Source of the DNA: Verrucomicrobium sp. BvORR034
GTDB lineage: Bacteria; Verrucomicrobiota; Verrucomicrobiia; Verrucomicrobiales; Verrucomicrobiaceae
NCBI RefSeq assembly: GCF_000739635.1
Contig: NZ_BATQ01000056.1
Location: 62,001-126,000, forward strand
DNA length: 64,000 nucleotides
Reading direction: 5' to 3'
Numbering within the stretch: position 1 is the stretch's first letter; each line of letters opens with the position of its first letter. The translations under genes were made by a program, and so were the position numbers. The notes under the pieces were generated by a model, which did no database searches, was not told the origin of the DNA, and saw only the letters and a program-made list of their open reading frames with translations. This document shows positions 29,186 to 44,073 of this stretch, one piece after another.

Positions 29186-30079
29186 TCAGTTGTTCTGCTC
29201 TGGCTCCTTGTCATGCAGCACCAAGAATGGAGCAGGCTTCTTCCCATTTTGGGCAGGGAGTCGAAGGTGGGCCAGCGTGTACTCCAGCATGGCTTGACGC
29301 ACTTGCAGGCTCATTCTCCCGGATTTGAGATCGTAGTCCGCCTTCACGGCCTCCTGCTGTTCCTTGGAGAGAGCCGGATTCGGCATCAGGTCCAGCGTGA
29401 GCCATGTATGCCACTCGGCATCCGGCTCCAGTCGTCCCGCCGGCAGGGTGGGCCACTCGGTTTCCTTGATCCGGCCCAGCACAAAGTCGCGGTAGGCCTT
29501 GTTTTCCTCGCACCAGGCGCGGACATGCCAGCGGTAGCCGTCATGGGCAAAGGCGTGAGGAGTGATCCAGCGCCAGCCAGGCCGGCGCTGAGTGAGCGAG
29601 AGGTAGTGGATCCGCACCCGCAGTTCCTGCAGGGTGGCCAGAAAGATGGAGCGATGCACGGCCGGCAGCGCAGTCCGTTGGGGCAGGCCCACTCCTGCCA
29701 CCCGCATCCCGGCGTGGCTTGTGGGTTCAGAGGCTGGGGATTCGAGTGCTCCTCCCGCTAGGGACCCGCCCCATCCACCAGCGCCTCCCGGCGAGGCAGG
29801 TTCGAGGAACTGGCCGAGCGCTTCCTCAAGCTGAGGCTGGTGCAGCACGCATTTCATCGTTGGCGTGCCTTCGTAGCGTTTGCGTTTCAGGCTGTAGGTG
29901 AGCGCCGTGGGATTGAGCTCCAGGTACTTTTGGAGATCCGCCGAAGCCTGTGCCTGGGAGACGCCATACACCTGCTGCAGGTCATTCCGGTTCACCATGC
30001 CCCGCCACCACGCGCTGCGCTCGATGAATCGGAGCCGCTCCAGAGCGGCCCATTGGGAAGGGTTGGTGTTGTTACCCAT
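29186..30079 (-). CDS. HTH-WYL transcriptional regulator, BrxR/CapW-like
   Basis: A 297-residue regulator. The N-terminal winged helix reads L-E-R-L-R-F-I-E-R-S-A-W-W-R-G and then R-N-D-L-Q-Q-V-Y-G-V-S-Q-A-Q-A-S-A-D-L, the pattern of BrxR/CapW defence-island repressors. A Gly/Pro/Ser-rich linker (about 90-125) leads to a WYL domain (I-H-Y-L-S-L, H-D-G-Y-R-W-H-V-R-A-W) and a WCX-like C-terminus. BrxR/CapW repress defence operons and are released by an unknown signal from infection. It is divergent from a defence island and lies 2 kb from the cas genes. The start at 30079 is preferred over 30187. Several GTTAAAC boxes lie upstream. Confidence 0.8.
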   Translation of the reverse strand: MGNNTNPSQWAALERLRFIERSAWWRGMVNRNDLQQVYGVSQAQASADLQKYLELNPTALTYSLKRKRYEGTPTMKCVLHQPQLEEALGQFLEPASPGGAGGWGGSLAGGALESPASEPTSHAGMRVAGVGLPQRTALPAVHRSIFLATLQELRVRIHYLSLTQRRPGWRWITPHAFAHDGYRWHVRAWCEENKAYRDFVLGRIKETEWPTLPAGRLEPDAEWHTWLTLDLMPNPALSKEQQEAVKADYDLKSGRMSLQVRQAMLEYTLAHLRLPAQNGKKPAPFLVLHDKEPEQNN

Positions 30080-30459
30080 CGTGTTAAACGATTGACAAGT
30101 TAAACTGTGCGGAATAAAAGAGCACGACACACGACCTCTTTTACGAGGGAGTGGAGATAGTTTACATGTCTTAATTAATGTTGGCAACGGGTGTCTTTGG
30201 TCCCTGCGTCAGTGCAAATGGGGATTCCTATGAGTGAGCTGTCATACCTCTCTGATCGCCGAGGCAGTAAAACTGCAATCGTGCGGCCAGTTCCCGAGAA
30301 CAGCTGCTCTCCGCGCATTCTCAAGTGCAGCCCATTTTGTAATAGAGGCGCGAGATCACCTGGATTTTTTGATTGACTCAATCAGTTATTTTGACCGATA
30401 AATTTGTTAAACTGATTTCGTTTACCTGCAAAATCTGAGCTTCATTCAAACGCGGCATG
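30080..30459. promoter_or_regulatory. Intergenic region with repeated GTTAAAC/GTTTAC boxes
   Basis: 380 bp without a supported gene. GTTAAAC occurs at 30083-30089 and 30099-30105 (16 bp apart, directly before the regulator start), GTTTAC at 30160-30165, GTTAAAC at 30406-30412 and GTTTAC at 30420-30425. The last two form an imperfect inverted repeat. These are candidate binding sites for the adjacent WYL regulator. Confidence 0.45.
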
Positions 30460-31035: not shown

Positions 31036-31257
31036 CTAATCATCGATAGAATAGTTTCTGGTGCTGCCTCGAAGAGTGAGGAGATTTTCAAATCCTCCGC
31101 GCCCCACTCCAGACAATTCGGCAGCTTTTCCAATCGAGATCAGTCCCTTTTCATAGTAAAAAACGGCGAGGTCAGCTTTAACGACGGCGTCAACTTCAGA
31201 TGCTGGAACTCCCAAGATCTCCACAATGTCCTCTGGGAAATCAATAGAAAGGGTCAT
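31036..31257 (-). CDS. UPF0175 family antitoxin
   Basis: A 73-residue protein beginning M-T-L-S-I-D-F-P-E-D-I-V. It contains the helical segment F-Y-Y-E-K-G-L-I-S-I-G-K-A-A-E-L-S-G, typical of UPF0175 proteins, which bind DNA and act as antitoxins to DUF3368 PIN-like toxins. The start at 31257 is preceded by an AGGA-type ribosome-binding site; 31323 is in frame but less likely. It is encoded 180 bp downstream of the toxin gene on the same strand, the reverse of the usual antitoxin-first order. Confidence 0.8.
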   Translation of the reverse strand: MTLSIDFPEDIVEILGVPASEVDAVVKADLAVFYYEKGLISIGKAAELSGVGRGGFENLLTLRGSTRNYSIDD

Positions 31258-31437
31258 TTCCTGCCAAGTATGGCAGCAACCCCAGTTCCTCGCAACTCCT
31301 TCAATGGGGCCGCGCTTTCGCAAGTGCGGATTTGCGACCGATGTGGTCGACTGAAGTGGCTTAATCGCAGCTTCAACGTAGCCTCGTTAACCCATAAGGG
31401 CGAGGGGAGGGATGGTTGCGAAGAACTGGGGAGCAAA

Positions 31438-31929
31438 TCAGATTTCGTCTTCCTCCCGAAGGATCTTTTCAATCACCTCCAATGTAAGACGATTCCCTTT
31501 GTCGCGAAGTTGATAAAGAAGTGGTTTAACGGCGGCTATAACGCCAAGTTTTTTGCAACGGGTCAGTATACGCGCTGTGGCGATTTCCTCAACGTCCATT
31601 TTGTTCGCGAATCTCCTCGCAAGGCGGTCGTCCGTGAAGCAGCAGCCGCCCTGGGCATATGCCAGGGAAATCGCTTGGATCTCTCCCTCCCCAAGTCTAG
31701 TGGAATTGCCTTTGAGCAAAGGGATCGGATCCGTCCAGGCCAGCAGCCATTCAGCCTTGGCATATTCTTGCTGAGCTTGCCGAGCATCCTCCCAATTTGG
31801 GCCGTCATCTACGAACTCCTTGATTACCTTCGGGGCGAGCCAAACCTGCGGGAAAACGTGCTTAAGCAGGTCAAGGCGACGAATGGAAGAAAGCGCCACG
31901 ATGCCAGAGGTGTCCCCAGAGATAAACAT
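31438..31929 (-). CDS. DUF3368 PIN-like toxin (putative RNase)
   Basis: A 163-residue PIN-fold protein. The first acidic residue is in the early strand (I-S-G-D-T-S-G-I-V-A-L, D6). L-G-E-G-E-I-Q-A-I-S-L-A gives the second acidic cluster and C-C-F-T-D-D-R-L-A-R-R the third, which together form the metal site of PIN RNases. DUF3368 proteins are toxins paired with UPF0175, whose gene is the next on this strand. The pair lies between the WYL regulator and the cas operon and reads against the cas genes. Confidence 0.8.
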   Translation of the reverse strand: MFISGDTSGIVALSSIRRLDLLKHVFPQVWLAPKVIKEFVDDGPNWEDARQAQQEYAKAEWLLAWTDPIPLLKGNSTRLGEGEIQAISLAYAQGGCCFTDDRLARRFANKMDVEEIATARILTRCKKLGVIAAVKPLLYQLRDKGNRLTLEVIEKILREEDEI

Positions 31930-32115: not shown

Positions 32116-33372
32116 ATGACTACGTCGAGTTCGAAAACTTTGAGTTTAGATACCCTTCAGCAGGCCATAGCCAACTCGGCTGTGGCGATTCGTGCCAAGG
32201 TTGAGTACCAACCTTCCGCAGGCGTCGGAACCAAAGTCTTCCCGCCCACCTATGAAGGTGGCAAATATGCTGGGGAGGGGAAACGTTTCGAGGCATCTGA
32301 CGACGGCAAGGATCGCAAGGGCTCCGTCGTGGGTTATGATCGCATGCTTCTGGACTCCGTTCAGGCTCAGGCCAATGGAATGGAGGAGGCGTTGCTCGAA
32401 GCGTGGAGGCAGGGGCTGATCTCGCTGCCCGTCATTACGGTAGATTTCTCCGGAAATGAGCTTCTCAAAAATCTATCCATCACGAGCCTCGATGCCCCTC
32501 ACCGCATTGCAGATGCCCTTCTGCGGGACAGCCTCCTTGATGGAGTCAAGTTTCGCGCCTCTAAAGTAGGAAAGTCACTGGACAACGTTGATGCCAGGAA
32601 TGCGACGGCGCTCCTGCAGTACTGCCCCACTGCCTTGCTGCTCGGGCTTTGGGATTCTACAGGGCCAAAGGGGGGAATGGGGATCAAGTTTGCGCGCGCC
32701 CTCGTCTCCGAGATGGTGGCTTATGATGTCTCTCTCGGCGTGAAGACCAGCAGTCGACTGGACCCAGCCGAGATCAAGCTGGCTGCTGGGCCCGTCTTCC
32801 AAACGAAAGATGGGGACTGGACCCTCAACGAAAAGGAAGCCCTGCATGAGAAGGGCAAGCCTGTCAAAGTGGGCAAGGATGGCAAACCCTCGGAGACGAA
32901 TCATGGCAACGTCACCCCCTCAATTTCTGACGGAGGCGTGGTATTTGAGAGGGCAGAGCAGACGGTGGTTCTTTCGCTGACGGCACTGCGGCGACTCTCC
33001 TTCCCGATCAACGGGGCAAAGCCCGACTCGAAAGTTGACGTCGCGGCTCGTACCTTGCTGGCTGCGCTGGGATTGTGTGCGGCCACCTTGGCTCGCGAAC
33101 AGAACAGTGATCTTCGGTCACGGTGTCTGCTTCACGCTACCACTCCTGCTGAGTGGAAGATCCTGGACGAACCTGGCGAACCAGAGACTTCCTACTCGCT
33201 GAACCGGCTGCAAGCCATTGATCTCTTCAATGCAGCTTTGGAAGCGGCCAAGGCGGTCAAGCTTCCTTGGGAGGAAAATGAGGTGACGCTCAAGCCCTCG
33301 CCCCAGCTTGTCGAACTGGTGCGCCGTAGTCAGAACCTCGCCGCGAAACAAACTTTGGATACTGAAGCGTGA
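32116..33372 (+). CDS. csb1: Type I-G (I-U) CRISPR-associated protein Csb1 (Cas7 backbone)
   Basis: A 418-residue protein of the GSU0053/Csb1 family, the Cas7 subunit that coats the crRNA in type I-G Cascade. Supporting patterns: R-A-K-V-E-Y-Q-P near residue 30, T-K-V-F-P-P-T-Y, S-L-D-A-P-H-R-I-A-D-A, L-L-L-G-L-W-D-S-T-G-P-K-G-G and the C-terminal R-S-Q-N-L-A. The Cas7 gene also comes first in related I-G loci. It is the first gene of a tightly packed operon: its TGA overlaps the csb2 start by 4 bp (ATGA). A 186-bp leader with no clear promoter separates it from the toxin gene. Confidence 0.88.
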   Translation: MTTSSSKTLSLDTLQQAIANSAVAIRAKVEYQPSAGVGTKVFPPTYEGGKYAGEGKRFEASDDGKDRKGSVVGYDRMLLDSVQAQANGMEEALLEAWRQGLISLPVITVDFSGNELLKNLSITSLDAPHRIADALLRDSLLDGVKFRASKVGKSLDNVDARNATALLQYCPTALLLGLWDSTGPKGGMGIKFARALVSEMVAYDVSLGVKTSSRLDPAEIKLAAGPVFQTKDGDWTLNEKEALHEKGKPVKVGKDGKPSETNHGNVTPSISDGGVVFERAEQTVVLSLTALRRLSFPINGAKPDSKVDVAARTLLAALGLCAATLAREQNSDLRSRCLLHATTPAEWKILDEPGEPETSYSLNRLQAIDLFNAALEAAKAVKLPWEENEVTLKPSPQLVELVRRSQNLAAKQTLDTEA

Positions 33373-37924: not shown

Positions 37925-39018
37925 ATTCCAGTCTTTGCCCACTTCCAGGATTGGACGGCACCAATCCATTGGCGTTTCTAGCCTCGCTTGGCGTATTGCG
38001 GTTGCTCACCTTGGCCCGGCCGGAACTTGAGCCCCAGTTGAGCTGGGACAAAGGCTGTCAGCGCCCGGTACTCAAGCTGCGCAATGTGCTGACCCAAGAT
38101 GAGATTAGCCAGATACTGTGGTCCTCCCTTATTGGCGGCCCTAACGATTGTGGGGCGGGCTTAAAAGCTCGAGAGGTGCTTTCATCCCGACAGAACCAGC
38201 GTGAGGCTGCCGAGAAGGAAATGAAGAAAGACAAGTCCTTGTCCTCTGCTGACAGGAAGAAGCGACTTGAAGCTTATGATGCAGAGCTGTCCGAACTCCA
38301 GAAGAGATGGCTTGGCCTGGCTGCGCCTCATCTCAACTTTGGGCCGGATACAAAATTCCAGATGACCGTCTATCGGTCCTGGGAGTTGGCCGCAAAGGAT
38401 GTTTCGGCATCAGATCGGACCCAGGCTGATGTGATCGCGTCACTTTGCTCAAGTGCACATGGTGACGAGGAAGGTTTTGCTGCTGATACGGACTTCCGCA
38501 CGGTCAGAGGCGCTGGGCATCAACACTTTTTGGGGATCATGGTGAACCAGCTCATTGAGTTGCAGCCTCAACATGTGCAAAAGACGCTCTTTGCCCCTTG
38601 GCAGTACGATGATCCGCTGGAGGCGCTCTCCCTCCGTTGGGATCCACTTGATGATGTGCGTTATGCTCTTCGTTGGGGTAATCCCAGTGGTGATCCGTTG
38701 CGAAAGAAACAGGGCAACATGATTGCTGCCAATACGCTTGCTGCTGCTGCCCTTCCGTGCTTCCCGGTTGTTCCAACCGACGATGGGGTTGCCACGACGG
38801 GGTTTAGCAAGATAAATCGCGCCACCTGTTGGTCCTGGCCCTTGTGGGATGGCTTCCTTAACCTTGACTGTGTACGCAGTCTTCTGGCGCACCATGAGCT
38901 GCAGAAGGATGAACCTGATCATCGGCAACTTTCGCCCATGGGTATTTTCGGAGTTTTCAGGACGGAGCGATTTACTCAGGGGAAGTTCAGGAACTTTACG
39001 CCTGCTGAAGCGGTGTAG
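37921..39018 (+). CDS. Type I-G Cas8-like subunit (Csx17/Csb3 or Cas3-extension group), short form
   Basis: A 365-residue protein starting at an ATGA overlap with cas3. The N-terminus G-L-D-G-T-N-P-L-A-F-L-A-S-L-G-V-L-R-L-L matches the opening of Cas8-type subunits of type I-G (compare Y-L-K-A-L-G-V-L-R-L in Csx17). The C-terminal part contains L-S-L-R-W-D-P-L-D-D-V-R-Y-A-L-R-W and then G-N-M-I-A-A-N-T-L-A-A-A-A-L-P, a phrase I associate with this group. Csx17 is about twice as long, so the large subunit is either a compact form or belongs to the Csb3/Cas3-extension group. Which one cannot be decided here. It probably recognises the PAM. Confidence 0.7.
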   Translation: MNSSLCPLPGLDGTNPLAFLASLGVLRLLTLARPELEPQLSWDKGCQRPVLKLRNVLTQDEISQILWSSLIGGPNDCGAGLKAREVLSSRQNQREAAEKEMKKDKSLSSADRKKRLEAYDAELSELQKRWLGLAAPHLNFGPDTKFQMTVYRSWELAAKDVSASDRTQADVIASLCSSAHGDEEGFAADTDFRTVRGAGHQHFLGIMVNQLIELQPQHVQKTLFAPWQYDDPLEALSLRWDPLDDVRYALRWGNPSGDPLRKKQGNMIAANTLAAAALPCFPVVPTDDGVATTGFSKINRATCWSWPLWDGFLNLDCVRSLLAHHELQKDEPDHRQLSPMGIFGVFRTERFTQGKFRNFTPAEAV

Positions 39019-39031
39019 TGGGAGGTCTATC

Positions 39032-39706
39032 ATGCCTGCCCCAGAGCACATAGACGGACCGCCACCCCATCCCTACCCCTACCTCGAAGAAGTCCTGCCC
39101 GGCTTCCACCGGGCGCGGGACCTCATCAAGGGGGCGGGGGATCGGTTGCAGGTGTTGGGGTTGGTGGGGGAGAAGCAGGAGTTCTATCGTTTCGCCAACC
39201 GGTTGCGGTTGGCGGCGTGTTTCGGTGGGCTGCACCTGAAAGGGTTCACGGAAGAAACAGCGACGGGGTATGACGCTCTGACACAGATCTTCTTCACGTG
39301 GTCGGTCTTCGAGAGGTATGCGGATCTGGCCAATGACCGGCCGCCGTACCGGAATCTCTTCGCCCATCATCCGCGGAAGCTGGTCCACGATCTGGCCAGT
39401 GAATGCCGGGCGCAGGATCCGGAACACAAGCTCACGGAATTCCTCATCACCCAGTCGATCCTGCCGGTGCATGAGGAATTCCTGAAGCGTTACCGGGAAG
39501 GCCATGACTTCTCCGTGCTCACGCTGGGGGCCTGCATTCGCCACATCTTTGTGCACGGGCACCTGACCGCGAATCCGTATCGACTGTCGGCACACAACCT
39601 GGCGTTGGTATGTTGCTCCCTGAATTCCTTCCTCATGAACTTCATGCGCAGCGACCTGCTGAGGCGGGTGCAACTCGCTGAGGCGCAAACGGCAGTGAAG
39701 TCGTGA
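39032..39706 (+). CDS. Unknown cas-operon protein with HEPN-type R-x4-H motif
   Basis: A 224-residue, mostly helical protein 13 bp after the Cas8-like gene. It is not a known core Cas family to me. Near the C-terminus R170-H-I-F-V-H175 fits the HEPN RNase motif R-(N/D/H)-x3-H, followed by G-H-L-T-A-N-P-Y-R and a long helix, the place where HEPN domains carry their active site. The earlier helix H-E-E-F-L-K-R-Y-R-E could be the second core helix. If it is a HEPN RNase it might act as an abortive-infection or ancillary module of this CRISPR system. The call is based on motif and context only. GC and codon use look closer to cas4-cas1 than to cas3. Confidence 0.5.
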   Translation: MPAPEHIDGPPPHPYPYLEEVLPGFHRARDLIKGAGDRLQVLGLVGEKQEFYRFANRLRLAACFGGLHLKGFTEETATGYDALTQIFFTWSVFERYADLANDRPPYRNLFAHHPRKLVHDLASECRAQDPEHKLTEFLITQSILPVHEEFLKRYREGHDFSVLTLGACIRHIFVHGHLTANPYRLSAHNLALVCCSLNSFLMNFMRSDLLRRVQLAEAQTAVKS

Positions 39707-39871
39707 ACGAGGCTCGCAGGTGCTAACGGCTGTTGCTGCGTGGAGGTAGAAGTGCTGGCGCCAATAGGCGGGTGAGCATGGCGACCTGGCGTTTGTTGCA
39801 AGGTGTTACATATTTTTTGCTTTGCTATTGCGGATAAGGACGCATATTGGCATCCCTGCTGATCTGTCGCG

Positions 39872-42466
39872 ATGGACTCACCCACGCCACCCCGCATTCG
39901 CACTGCCCGTGCGCCGGCTCCGCTGACTACGGGGGAGGCGGGCGCAGAGGTTCTCTTGCCGTTTCCCGGCCTGCAGCCTCCCGCAGGGCATCCAGAGCTG
40001 GAGCTCTTCGCAGAGACGAAGGGGAAGGCGGAACCGGCACAGAGCGCACCAGACGTGGGGGAAGCGGAATCGCTGCCGACCTCGGTGCCAGCGTCTGCCG
40101 AGCTGGGCAGCGTCACTGGGAAGACCGAAGAAGAACCTGGTCAGCTTGCAGATGGAGCCACGGTGCCCGGCGGGCAGGGCCCTCTGCGGGCGGCTCCTCG
40201 ACGGTTGGCGGTGCCGCAGCTGGAGCTGGATTGGGGAACCTCAGCACCGAAAATTGAGGCTGAGGAGAAAGGGGCGGTGGCGAGGGAGCTTGATGATGAA
40301 GGAGCTCTGGATCAGGGCCTTGAGGCAAGGGCCGACAAGGTCTTGCCTGAGATGCCCGGTGAATGGGAGCCGGGGATGGAGACCTCACCGGAGATCGTCG
40401 CAAAGGCCACCCCAGGCCTGGAGCCGGAGACGCTGCCGCAACAGGAAGTGCTGCCCTCCCGGATGCTCAATGAGTTTGTCTATTGCCCCCGGCTCTTCTA
40501 CTACGAGTACGTGGAGGGCGTGTTCGTGGCCAATGCGGACACGGAACGGGGCAGTGCACTGCATGCCAAAGTGGACAAGGGCAAGGGAGACTTGCCGCAG
40601 GCGAAAAAAGCAGCGGGCGGAAAGAAAGGTGCTTCAAACGCACCCAAGGAGGGGGATGACGGAGATTGGTTCGCCGAAGGGGCCAAGGCGGCGGCCGATC
40701 CTGACGAGGTGCCTGACGAAAGGGGAGCCATTTCCCAAAGTGATGCCGCTGCAGAAGAGGTGGAGGTTGAGCCGAATGATGAAGGAGAGGCTGCTGCTGG
40801 TGTGAGGGAAGCGGATCGTATCATTCACTCCCGCTCGGCCACTCTGAGTTCAGAGCGGCTGGGCGTGCTGGCAAAGATGGATTTGATCGAGGTCCGAATG
40901 GGCATGGTGGCGGGTGAGAACGGAGCCCGGTCACGTGAGATCAAGACGGTGACGCCAGTGGACTACAAGGCGGGTGCCCCGAAAAAGGGCGCGGATGCCA
41001 ACGAGCTCTGGGACGCTGACAAAATGCAACTGGGGCTGCAGATCCTGATCCTGCGGGACAATGGCTACCAGTGTGAAGAAGGGGTGATCTACTACCGTGC
41101 GACAAAACAGCGCGTGCGCCTGCCGATGACCGAAGGGCTGGAGAGGTGGATCCTCGCCCAGATCGCGAAGGCGAGAGAGACGGCCCGCGGACCCATGCCG
41201 CTGCCGTTGGTGGGTTCGCCCAAATGTGTGCGGTGCTCACTGGCGCCCGTCTGCCTGCCGGATGAGACGTGGATGCTGGCGGGACGGAGGACGGAAGGGG
41301 ATGTCGGATTACCGGAGGATGAGCTCACGAGCGAAGCGGGATTAGGATCGCCTCCTGCCGTTGCCAACGGGGCGCCTCGTCGGCTGATGGCCGCCCGGGA
41401 CGATGCTCGGGCATTGTATCTGTCCACTCCTGGTTATCATGTGGGTCGCAGCGGGGAGCTGCTGGTGGTGAAAGACGGATCCGCCGTGGTGGAGGAGTTC
41501 CGCCTCAGTGATCTGACGCATGTGGCGCTCTTTGGGAACGTGCAGATCACCACCCAGGCGGTGCAGGTGCTGTGCGAAAAGGAGATTCCCCTGGCCTACT
41601 TCTCCACCGGCGGGTGGTTCTATGGTTTAACACGTGGTCATGTGACCAAAAACGTGTTCACGCGGATCGAGCAGTTTCGTGCGGCCGATGATCCGATGCG
41701 GTGCCTGGCGGTGTCGCGGAGGTTTGTGGCGGGCAAGATCCGCAATCACAGGACCTTGTTGATGCGGCTGCATGTAGAGCCGCCCGCTGCAGTGCTGGCC
41801 AGGCTGAAGCAGGCGAGTCTGGACGCGCTGGGCGCGAGGTCTCTGGAAACGCTGTTGGGCACTGAAGGGGCGGCTGCGGCATTGTATTTGCAGCACTTTG
41901 CCGGGATGATCAAGGTGGGGGCGGCGGATGACGATGATGAGATCCCGGGGCTGGAGTCGGCCTCCGCTGCGCGTGCCCCGGAGGAGAGTGTCTTCACGTT
42001 TGACTTTACCAAGCGCAGCCGGCGGCCACCCACTGACCCGGTGAATGCTTTGCTCTCGCTGGCCTACAGTCTGCTGGCCAAGGATTGCACGATCGCGGCT
42101 CATGCGGTGGGGTTCGATCCCTATGTGGGCTTTTACCACCAGCCGCGCTACGGTCGCCCGGCGCTGGCGCTGGATCTAATGGAGGAATTTCGGCCCCTGG
42201 TGGCAGAGAGCGTGGTGCTCACCGCCATCAACAATCGCATGCTGGTGCCGGACCACTTTGTCAGGGCCGGGGAGGGCGTCAATCTGACGTCCACGGGACG
42301 CAAGGTTTTCTTCCAGGCGTACGAACAACGCATGGGAAGCATCATCACGCATCCGGTGTTCGACTACAAGGTCAGCTACCGTCGGGTGCTGGAACTGCAG
42401 GCGCGGATCTTGGCCCGGTATCTCACGGGTGAAATCAAAGAGTACATCCCCATGGTGACGCGCTAG
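39872..42466 (+). CDS. cas4-cas1: Cas4-Cas1 fusion with long disordered N-terminal arm
   Basis: An 864-residue adaptation protein. Residues 1-190 are Pro/Glu/Ala-rich and probably disordered. Residues 195-465 are Cas4: C205 in Y-C-P-R-L-F, H231, D337, the V-D-Y-K-A-G motif with D364 and K366, and C452/C455/C461 for the iron-sulfur cluster. A Lys/Asp/Glu-rich insertion at about 235-310 interrupts the domain. Residues 513-864 are Cas1 with a full triad: E665 in G-T-E-G-A-A-A, H756 in G-F-Y-H and D768 in A-L-D-L-M-E-E. Cas4-Cas1 fusions are typical of type I-G (Geobacter), where Cas4 selects the PAM and trims prespacers; the arm and insertion are unusual. A start near residue 161 or 169 cannot be excluded. 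A 165-bp gap precedes it. Confidence 0.93.
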   Translation: MDSPTPPRIRTARAPAPLTTGEAGAEVLLPFPGLQPPAGHPELELFAETKGKAEPAQSAPDVGEAESLPTSVPASAELGSVTGKTEEEPGQLADGATVPGGQGPLRAAPRRLAVPQLELDWGTSAPKIEAEEKGAVARELDDEGALDQGLEARADKVLPEMPGEWEPGMETSPEIVAKATPGLEPETLPQQEVLPSRMLNEFVYCPRLFYYEYVEGVFVANADTERGSALHAKVDKGKGDLPQAKKAAGGKKGASNAPKEGDDGDWFAEGAKAAADPDEVPDERGAISQSDAAAEEVEVEPNDEGEAAAGVREADRIIHSRSATLSSERLGVLAKMDLIEVRMGMVAGENGARSREIKTVTPVDYKAGAPKKGADANELWDADKMQLGLQILILRDNGYQCEEGVIYYRATKQRVRLPMTEGLERWILAQIAKARETARGPMPLPLVGSPKCVRCSLAPVCLPDETWMLAGRRTEGDVGLPEDELTSEAGLGSPPAVANGAPRRLMAARDDARALYLSTPGYHVGRSGELLVVKDGSAVVEEFRLSDLTHVALFGNVQITTQAVQVLCEKEIPLAYFSTGGWFYGLTRGHVTKNVFTRIEQFRAADDPMRCLAVSRRFVAGKIRNHRTLLMRLHVEPPAAVLARLKQASLDALGARSLETLLGTEGAAAALYLQHFAGMIKVGAADDDDEIPGLESASAARAPEESVFTFDFTKRSRRPPTDPVNALLSLAYSLLAKDCTIAAHAVGFDPYVGFYHQPRYGRPALALDLMEEFRPLVAESVVLTAINNRMLVPDHFVRAGEGVNLTSTGRKVFFQAYEQRMGSIITHPVFDYKVSYRRVLELQARILARYLTGEIKEYIPMVTR

Positions 42467-43151: not shown

Positions 43152-44073
43152 GGTCTCCGCTCTCGCGAGAGAGCGGCTTCGTTGAAGCTCCTTCCAGGCT
43201 TTGGCCAGGGCATTGGGGTTGGCACGGTCTCCGCTCTCGCGAGAGAGCGGCTTCGTTGAAGCTTTCAGCGATGTGCCGGTGCTCCTGGAGCGGGAGGGAG
43301 GTCTCCGCTCTCGCGAGAGAGCGGCTTCGTTGAAGCAGTCTTGATGGTGGTGACAGCCTGGAGGACGGCCGCGGTCTCCGCTCTCGCGAGAGAGCGGCTT
43401 CGTTGAAGCGATCTGGCTCCGGACTGGCTGGATCAAGACGACAGCAGGTCTCCGCTCTCGCGAGAGAGCGGCTTCGTTGAAGCGCCACTGCCATCATCGC
43501 CATACATTGCGGCAGACCAGGTCTCCGCTCTCGCGAGAGAGCGGCTTCGTTGAAGCTTGTGTTCGATGGTGAATCCACGCTTTCTCAAATCGCGGTCTCC
43601 GCTCTCGCGAGAGAGCGGCTTCGTTGAAGCCCAGCATCCTGACGTTGCGCTGGACTTGGCGAGTGGAGGTCTCCGCTCTCGCGAGAGAGCGGCTTCGTTG
43701 AAGCAGCTGATGGCAGGGGAGGAGCCGCAGAGTGTAAAGCAGGTCTCCGCTCTCGCGAGAGAGCGGCTTCGTTGAAGCACATAGCCCTTCGCCTCCTGCT
43801 GCATCGTCTTGTCCCGGTCTCCGCTCTCGCGAGAGAGCGGCTTCGTTGAAGCCCTGCGCTGGCTTTGTTCCCCGTGCCGGGGAGGCGGGGGTCTCCGCTC
43901 TCGCGAGAGAGCGGCTTCGTTGAAGCAGAGGCATTGGCCAGGGTGGCGATCAAGGTGGCCGCTGTCTCCGCTCTCGCGAGAGAGCGGCTTCGGTGAAGCG
44001 GCACCCACTGGGCCTGTTCATCATCGAGGAAACCATCGTCTCCGCTCTCGCGAGAGCGCAGTCTCGTCGAAGC
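43152..44073 (+). CRISPR. CRISPR array, 13 repeats of 37 bp and 12 spacers of 36-37 bp
   Basis: Repeats start at 43152, 43226, 43300, 43373, 43447, 43520, 43594, 43668, 43742, 43816, 43890, 43963 and 44037. The first eleven are identical; they begin GGTCTCCG and end CTTCGTTGAAGC, a 3' end typical of type I-G. The core CCGCTCTC-GCGA-GAGAGCGG is a perfect 8-bp stem with a GCGA (GNRA) tetraloop. Repeat 12 has T for the first G and CGGTGAAGC at its end; repeat 13 has lost part of the stem and ends CGTCGAAGC. Decay at the right end sets the leader on the left. Transcription in the cas direction is expected. Confidence 0.98.

Follow-up and report, generated by a model that had tools for sequence, protein, structure and literature searches.

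The gene at positions 39032–39706 of the analysed window, a stretch of 64,000 nucleotides from Verrucomicrobium sp. BvORR034, lies inside a type I-G cas operon, and its product, ORF224, probably represents an undescribed CARF-less HEPN family, an abortive-infection-type RNase that type I-G and I-C loci carry as an optional ancillary gene where their effector and adaptation genes meet. The features of the locus are as follows.

32116–33372, + strand, cas7g (Csb1), TIGR02570
33369–34847, + strand, cas5-cas6 fusion csb2, TIGR02165
34844–37924, + strand, cas3g, TIGR02621
37921–39018, + strand, Cas3-extension family protein or small Cas8g, NF049934 and PADLOC PDLC01514 (Cas8g)
39032–39706, + strand, ORF224, HEPN-like protein and predicted RNase, ATG start at 39032, stop ending at 39706, 224 aa
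39539–39556, + strand, codons of R170-H-I-F-V-H175 (R-x4-H), counted from the start at 39032
39872–42466, + strand, cas4-cas1 fusion (Cas4g-Cas1g), NF049935
42579–42899, + strand, cas2, TIGR01573 and PF09827
43153–44073, + strand, CRISPR array with 36-bp repeats, after cas2

The operon is of type I-G by curated models, and the gene is located between the effector and adaptation genes, as in the initial annotation. The gene itself is real, with start, stop and ribosome site, and carries R170-H-I-F-V-H175 at the residues given for it: the start is preceded by the ribosome site GGGAGG, 13 bp separate it from the stop of the upstream cas gene, and cas4-cas1 begins 165 bp downstream. No promoter- or terminator-like sites were found in a search of positions 38800–40100. 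The array consists of 12 repeat copies with at most one mismatch (43153–43999) and one degenerate last copy (44038–44073). The gene had been described as unrecognised, and searches of Pfam, NCBIfam, PADLOC and PDB sequences indeed returned nothing significant for ORF224 (best E 0.045); PHROGs gave no match either.

With its composition of 18 arginines and 14 histidines, ORF224 is expected to contain 1.1 R-x4-H motifs, and three are observed (at R107, R153 and R170). Among 10,000 shuffles of the sequence, at least one such motif occurred in 70%, and three were reached in 8.7%; the motif in the single sequence is not beyond chance. The conservation across the family is what makes the R170–H175 motif meaningful, because it is kept in 27 of 27 members and the other R-x4-H motifs are not. 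R170, H175, G176, E94, R57, S91, Y80, F54 and F64 are invariant in all 27 family rows, ORF224 included, and pairwise identity to ORF224 goes down to about 20%. Conservation of R170 and H175 was one of the points on which the initial annotation had staked its reading beforehand, and the two residues are kept throughout. The position of H171 is occupied by H in 26 of the 27 rows and by V in the Pseudomonas aeruginosa plasmid copy. In the other motifs, R107 is kept in 19 rows, H112 in 15, R153 in 20 and H158 in 11. We considered R107-N-L-F-A-H112 as the active site, since R-N-x3-H fits the published preference, and rejected it at 19/27 and 15/27. As for the Ex3[KR] acidic motif, its E is invariant and K or R stands at +4 in 2 of the 12 members shown; many HEPN families have this form, but not all, and it is not required of HEPN.

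The 27 rows exclude interrupted or partial copies (L001/L065, L066, L067, L068 and partial duplicates in L012 and L051) as well as redundant ones, identical or nearly so (L018 and another five plasmid records of P. aeruginosa, and L069–L072); L065 (G387) and L001 (Verrucomicrobium sp. BvORR106) were counted once. Two members found after this count and standing outside it, L114 and L115, carry R-H-I-F-A-H-G and R-H-I-Y-V-H-G, respectively. Values of dN/dS from 0.08 to 0.33 in nine chosen pairs, those of four pairs being rough because dS exceeds 1, show that the family is under purifying selection.

According to the published rules for HEPN domains, the R-x4-6-H motif lies at the end of helix 3 and the start of the loop between helices 3 and 4, the arginine is followed by a polar residue, mostly N, D or H, helix 2 contains an acidic residue, and an insert occurs between helices 2 and 3 (PMC3710099). 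The AlphaFold model of ORF224 (pLDDT 78.6, pTM 0.77, from a shallow four-row alignment) has helix 1 at residues 48–63, helix 2 at 74–99 with E94, a helical insert at 100–158, helix 3 at 159–174 with R170 in its last turn and H175 directly after it, and helix 4 at 187–223; the matching of these helices to HEPN helices 1–4 is our own assignment. In the model of a viral member, L021 (pLDDT 79.0, pTM 0.82, shallow five-row alignment), R157, H162 and E79 are placed like R170, H175 and E94 of ORF224. The predicted topology of both models thus agrees with the published rules.

Comparison with known structures gave a milder result. Foldseek searches of PDB and BFVD with the models returned nothing significant (best E 0.71, 0.91 and 0.32, of which 0.71 belongs to ORF224 and 0.32 to the viral member). 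With the viral member as query, the VIA second-look aligner placed 1wty, which we take to be a HEPN protein, at rank 1 (Z 5.9, rmsd 3.5, 102 aligned residues), 7ae2, a "HEPN toxin", at rank 4 (Z 5.5, rmsd 4.8, 125 aligned), 2q00, presumably also a HEPN protein, at rank 14, and Csm6 at rank 45. With ORF224 itself, rank 1 was YutE (1ylm; Z 6.0, rmsd 4.2, 126 aligned), a HEPN domain (PMC3710099). These Z values of 5.5–6.0 are within the helical background stated for the aligner, and most rows of the lists are unrelated helical bundles such as vinculin, catenin and pre-60S factors, so the structure lists support the HEPN fold mildly. The fold check proposed in the initial annotation is thus weakly positive: the predicted topology agrees with HEPN and HEPN structures rank high, with no significant Foldseek match and with Z values at background.

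Profile comparison showed weak similarity. In a Pfam scan of nine family members, one had weak HEPN matches (Apea and RiboL-PSP) at E of about 0.03, below the cut-off. Against a profile of nine RiboL-PSP HEPN proteins, the ORF224 family scored 19.3 from a gap-trimmed alignment, with an hhalign probability of about 1%; this score was reached by none of 200 column-shuffled controls (mean 10.5, maximum 18.5), and the alignment places R170..H175-G in register with R-N-x-x-A-H-G. The untrimmed alignment gave another match of 29 columns that does not include the motif. A search for the Apea family found one partial match in 59 genomes. Overall, we consider it very likely that the ORF224 family is homologous to HEPN.

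Relatives were found by protein search in 7 of 288 genomes of the phylum, by profile search in 22 of 386 genomes of the order and by a wider profile in 10 of 384 genomes of the class, the window's genome being included each time. Further relatives occur on a Kosakonia plasmid, on P. aeruginosa plasmids and in viral contigs. As the sole query, ORF224 gave no relative in viral contigs, one genome contig and one plasmid; two other family members as queries gave no relative in phage records, the DNA of L020 and L021 gave no match in Escherichia coli genomes, and two further plasmid searches returned only records found previously.

In tblastn searches with reference Cas proteins, cas genes were found beside ORF224 in 16 of the 22 positive genomes of the order, at 17 loci (the window's genome, G317, G387, G187, G231, G343, G355, G404, G413, G421, G457 with two loci, G344, G215, G325, G437 and G516). 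The DNA fetched around ORF224 in the other six (G234, G410, G367, G288, G489 and G554) contained no match to a reference Cas protein. The link to type I-G drawn in the initial annotation is thus real but too narrow, as ORF224 also occurs in I-C loci and outside CRISPR. The cas4g_cas1g model exceeded its cut-off in 56 of the 386 genomes, of which nine additionally carry ORF224 at a cas locus; ORF224 is not a core gene of type I-G, and a minority of I-G genomes carry it. The same model also catches a type V-B-like locus, because a large ORF beside cas4-cas1 in L087 (2570–7360) matches the RuvC of Cas12b (C2c1). Another large ORF lies beside cas4-cas1 in L092 (3370–7392).

ORF224 is uninterrupted at 13 of the 17 cas-linked loci and seems dispensable, since the copy is interrupted, partial or cut by the contig end at the other four. 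That of G437 is split with part missing, an N-terminal piece is left in G355, and in G344 the gene ends at the contig edge. In G387 (L001 7341–10483; L065 7515–10621; Verrucomicrobium sp. BvORR106), the copy is disrupted by an inserted element that looks IS66-like, judging by its ORFs, and whose transposase-like genes run on the opposite strand; neither cas4-1 nor cas2 is interrupted there.

The position of the gene is constant. Downstream of ORF224, the next Cas match is cas4 or cas4-cas1 on the same strand in 16 of the 17 loci, the contig of G344 ending first, and on the upstream side the closest Cas match is always an effector gene (17 of 17). The effectors are of the window's I-G type, of a Csx17-containing I-G type, of a third divergent I-G type and of type I-C (Csx17, Csb2, Csd1, Csd2 and Cas5c were confirmed on representative loci), and the gene keeps its slot and strand across three families (f1, f2 and f62), in I-G as well as in I-C loci. 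Between the window and the same-genus genome G317 (L054), ORF224 is 93%, Cas4-1 87% and Cas2 100% identical, and BLASTP gave no match between the Cas7 proteins. The two loci of G457 carry copies of ORF224 that are 97% identical and effectors of different types. These data show that effector types change around ORF224 while cas4-1 and cas2 stay.

Between I-G and I-C loci, ORF224 is 59–69% identical, whereas Cas1 is 32–38% identical in a comparison that omits L050, L052 and L059, whose contigs end. Unless it has evolved much more slowly, ORF224 was acquired at this slot by both subtypes, or was transferred from one to the other, when their Cas1 lineages had already diverged. Its tree, which has several long branches and modest support, agrees with such entry or transfer, since the I-C copies cluster with two cas-less ones and copies from different I-G effector types are interspersed.

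Among 20 fetched loci lacking a match to ORF224, 11 have reference I-G effector genes in view. In these 11, the slot contains a PIN gene and a 295-aa protein in L074, a pRiA4b-like gene in L078, a YhcG nuclease and a pRiA4b-like gene in L079, and only short or opposite-strand ORFs in the remaining eight. The 295-aa protein of L074 (4398–5288) has no Pfam match. In G231 (L012 8879–10998), the stretch from the effector to the intact ORF224 contains a truncated copy of the gene as well as a Phd/PIN pair; by sequence reading, a RelE-like gene is present there on the other strand. In Thioalkalivibrio, a type I-G locus carries two toxin–antitoxin systems between csb2 and cas4-1 (PMC9638904). The effector/adaptation junction can be a cargo site for toxin-like genes.

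CRISPR is apparently not required for ORF224, because the family also occurs away from cas genes. Of the diverged members, one adjoins the BREX genes BrxL, PglZ and PglX (L015), one adjoins GmrSD (L064), one ParE (L016) and one Vsr (L114). In a prophage cargo (L020 367–5513), a retron I-A RT, PtuA, PtuB and a transposase-like gene are followed by an ORF224 homologue. By sequence reading, phage genes surround the homologue of L019, a polysaccharide cluster ends with the P. aeruginosa plasmid copy, the G288 copy has pilus/secretion-like genes around it, and no defence gene was recognised around the homologues of L053, L057, L062 and L063. A nucleotidyltransferase-like gene, also assigned by reading the sequence, is located about 1.8 kb upstream of the homologue in L114. 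The cas-less homologue of L014 (10223–11176) is longer by about 100 residues at its N-terminus, and this extension is a candidate sensor.

In the texts covered, HEPN domains of CRISPR systems are described only in CARF-HEPN proteins (types I and III) or in Cas13 of type VI (PMC12669027, PMC3710099, PMC8730458, PMC11127173). With Csm6/Csx1, which are CARF-HEPN proteins mainly of type III, ORF224 has in common the R-x4-6-H motif, a gene in a cas locus and the predicted RNase function. In contrast to them, it has no CARF match in Pfam, NCBIfam or PADLOC and no room for such a domain in 224 aa with one predicted helical domain; the 47 residues before helix 1 are a short segment, mostly of low confidence in the model. 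The setting also differs, as the locus is of type I-G and no Cas10 was found among the seven window proteins scanned. ORF224 shares its predicted helical topology and an R-x4-6-H motif ending helix 3 with HepT-like toxins (YutE 1ylm, 7ae2), but both its neighbours in the window are cas genes, so that no MNT nucleotidyltransferase partner adjoins it; it also has no sequence match to these toxins and carries a helical insert between helices 2 and 3. The RiboL-PSP and Apea-like families (PF18735, PF18739) have R-N-x-x-A-H-G aligned with R-H-I-F-V-H-G of ORF224 and an acidic residue upstream, as it does, although the ORF224 family is below the Pfam cut-off and the profile similarity is weak.

Toxin–antitoxin pairs of type I cas loci are likewise toxin-like genes between or beside cas genes (PMC3936711, PMC9638904), and those of the Thioalkalivibrio I-G locus occupy the same junction as ORF224 (PMC9638904), but no antitoxin adjoins ORF224 in the window; no HEPN-only gene is described in the passages covered of these two papers. 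The CreTA guard of type I-B resembles the idea proposed here in that it ties a type I system to the arrest of growth, but it is RNA-based, whereas ORF224 is a protein and is present without CRISPR as well (PMC8730458). In the open-access main texts covered, no I-G or I-C locus was found to carry a HEPN protein lacking CARF; an earlier mention may exist, for instance where supplements list ancillary genes or in subscription papers.

The gene, its conservation and position, the effector exchange around it, purifying selection and the defence genes beside several relatives are direct observations, whereas we infer the HEPN fold, RNase activity, dimer formation, toxicity and a role in defence. ORF224 would probably act as a dimeric, metal-independent RNase with R170 and H175 as the catalytic pair, helped by H171 and E94. 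It would be latent until infection and, once activated, would cut host and/or phage RNA, leading to dormancy or death. In this order it would have been recruited into I-G and I-C loci as an optional ancillary gene, the CRISPR linkage serving to co-express it with immunity. The existence of standalone copies implies that Cas proteins are dispensable for its sensing or its restraint, and control by one particular effector protein is argued against by the fact that ORF224 stays with cas4-1/cas2 while effectors change. The cas slot and the position beside other antiviral defences suggest a built-in back-up that shuts the cell down. A more specific version is tentative and has a low probability: ORF224 would be a portable CARF-free HEPN module at the effector/adaptation junction of DNA-targeting type I systems that responds to the state of Cascade or of Cas4-Cas1-Cas2 and imposes dormancy, either to gain time for spacer acquisition or to prevent spread once DNA interference has failed. 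If it is true, type I immunity has a collateral-RNase arm of its own that uses no cyclic nucleotides.

It has been proposed that CRISPR immunity is, as a general rule, linked to dormancy or suicide (PMC3506569), and a HEPN-only gene in I-G/I-C loci would let this hypothesis be tested directly in a simple DNA-targeting system. The ORF224 family, being present beside a retron and BREX too, is also a candidate defence family.

Four other explanations were weighed. It is doubtful that ORF224 is a passenger, meaning cargo of a defence island that was caught where recombination takes place and has no functional link with CRISPR, a reading with which RNase biochemistry is compatible: the variable content of the junction in related loci (a PIN gene, YhcG nuclease, pRiA4b-like genes or no comparable gene) and the four of 17 cas-linked copies that are broken or incomplete speak for it, but the slot and strand that I-G and I-C loci share across three families, and the low dN/dS, speak against it. 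The persistence of ORF224 with cas4-1/cas2 during effector exchange (window versus L054) and the cas4 or cas4-1 match next downstream in 16 of 17 loci would also be expected of an adaptation accessory, which helps Cas4-Cas1/Cas2 with prespacers or spacer choice and in which R-H-x-F-x-H-G is a nucleic-acid-binding or structural motif. FLSHclust has reported further genes associated with adaptation modules (PMC10910872; the word HEPN is absent from the main text of that paper). We regard this function as unlikely in view of the six of 22 genomes without a reference Cas protein nearby, the homologues on plasmids and viral contigs, the cas-linked ORF224 in only nine of 56 cas4g_cas1g genomes, and the identity of 59–69% against 32–38% for Cas1, because of which ORF224 has not simply co-evolved with one Cas1.

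An addiction guard, that is, a toxin checked by a Cas protein and freed on CRISPR loss, as CreTA does for I-B, would account for a gene inside the operon and for the toxin–antitoxin or nuclease genes that some related loci, and the locus of Thioalkalivibrio (PMC9638904), carry at this junction. This seems quite unlikely, since standalone homologues have no Cas partner in view and a Cas antitoxin would need to be shared among several effector types; moreover, no copy of the 36-base repeat with at most three mismatches occurs outside the array, a search that covers full-length copies and not shorter or degenerate creA-like ones. Very improbable, finally, is a catalytically dead or structural helical protein, such as the missing Cas11-like small subunit of the I-G effector. 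Type I-G has no cas11 gene (PMC9638904) and ORF224 is predicted to be mostly helical, but the motif residues are invariant in 27/27 members, viral and plasmid copies included, and the gene is also found in I-C, whose small subunit arises inside the large-subunit gene (PMC9638904). An abortive-infection-type HEPN RNase carried as an optional ancillary gene is, therefore, the explanation we prefer.

Two further observations concern the DNA upstream of the cas operon. Directly upstream and on the opposite strand, positions 31036–31929 of the window (− strand) encode UPF0175 and DUF3368 proteins, which are probably a toxin–antitoxin pair. Positions 29186–30187 (− strand) encode a WYL-domain protein, possibly a regulator.
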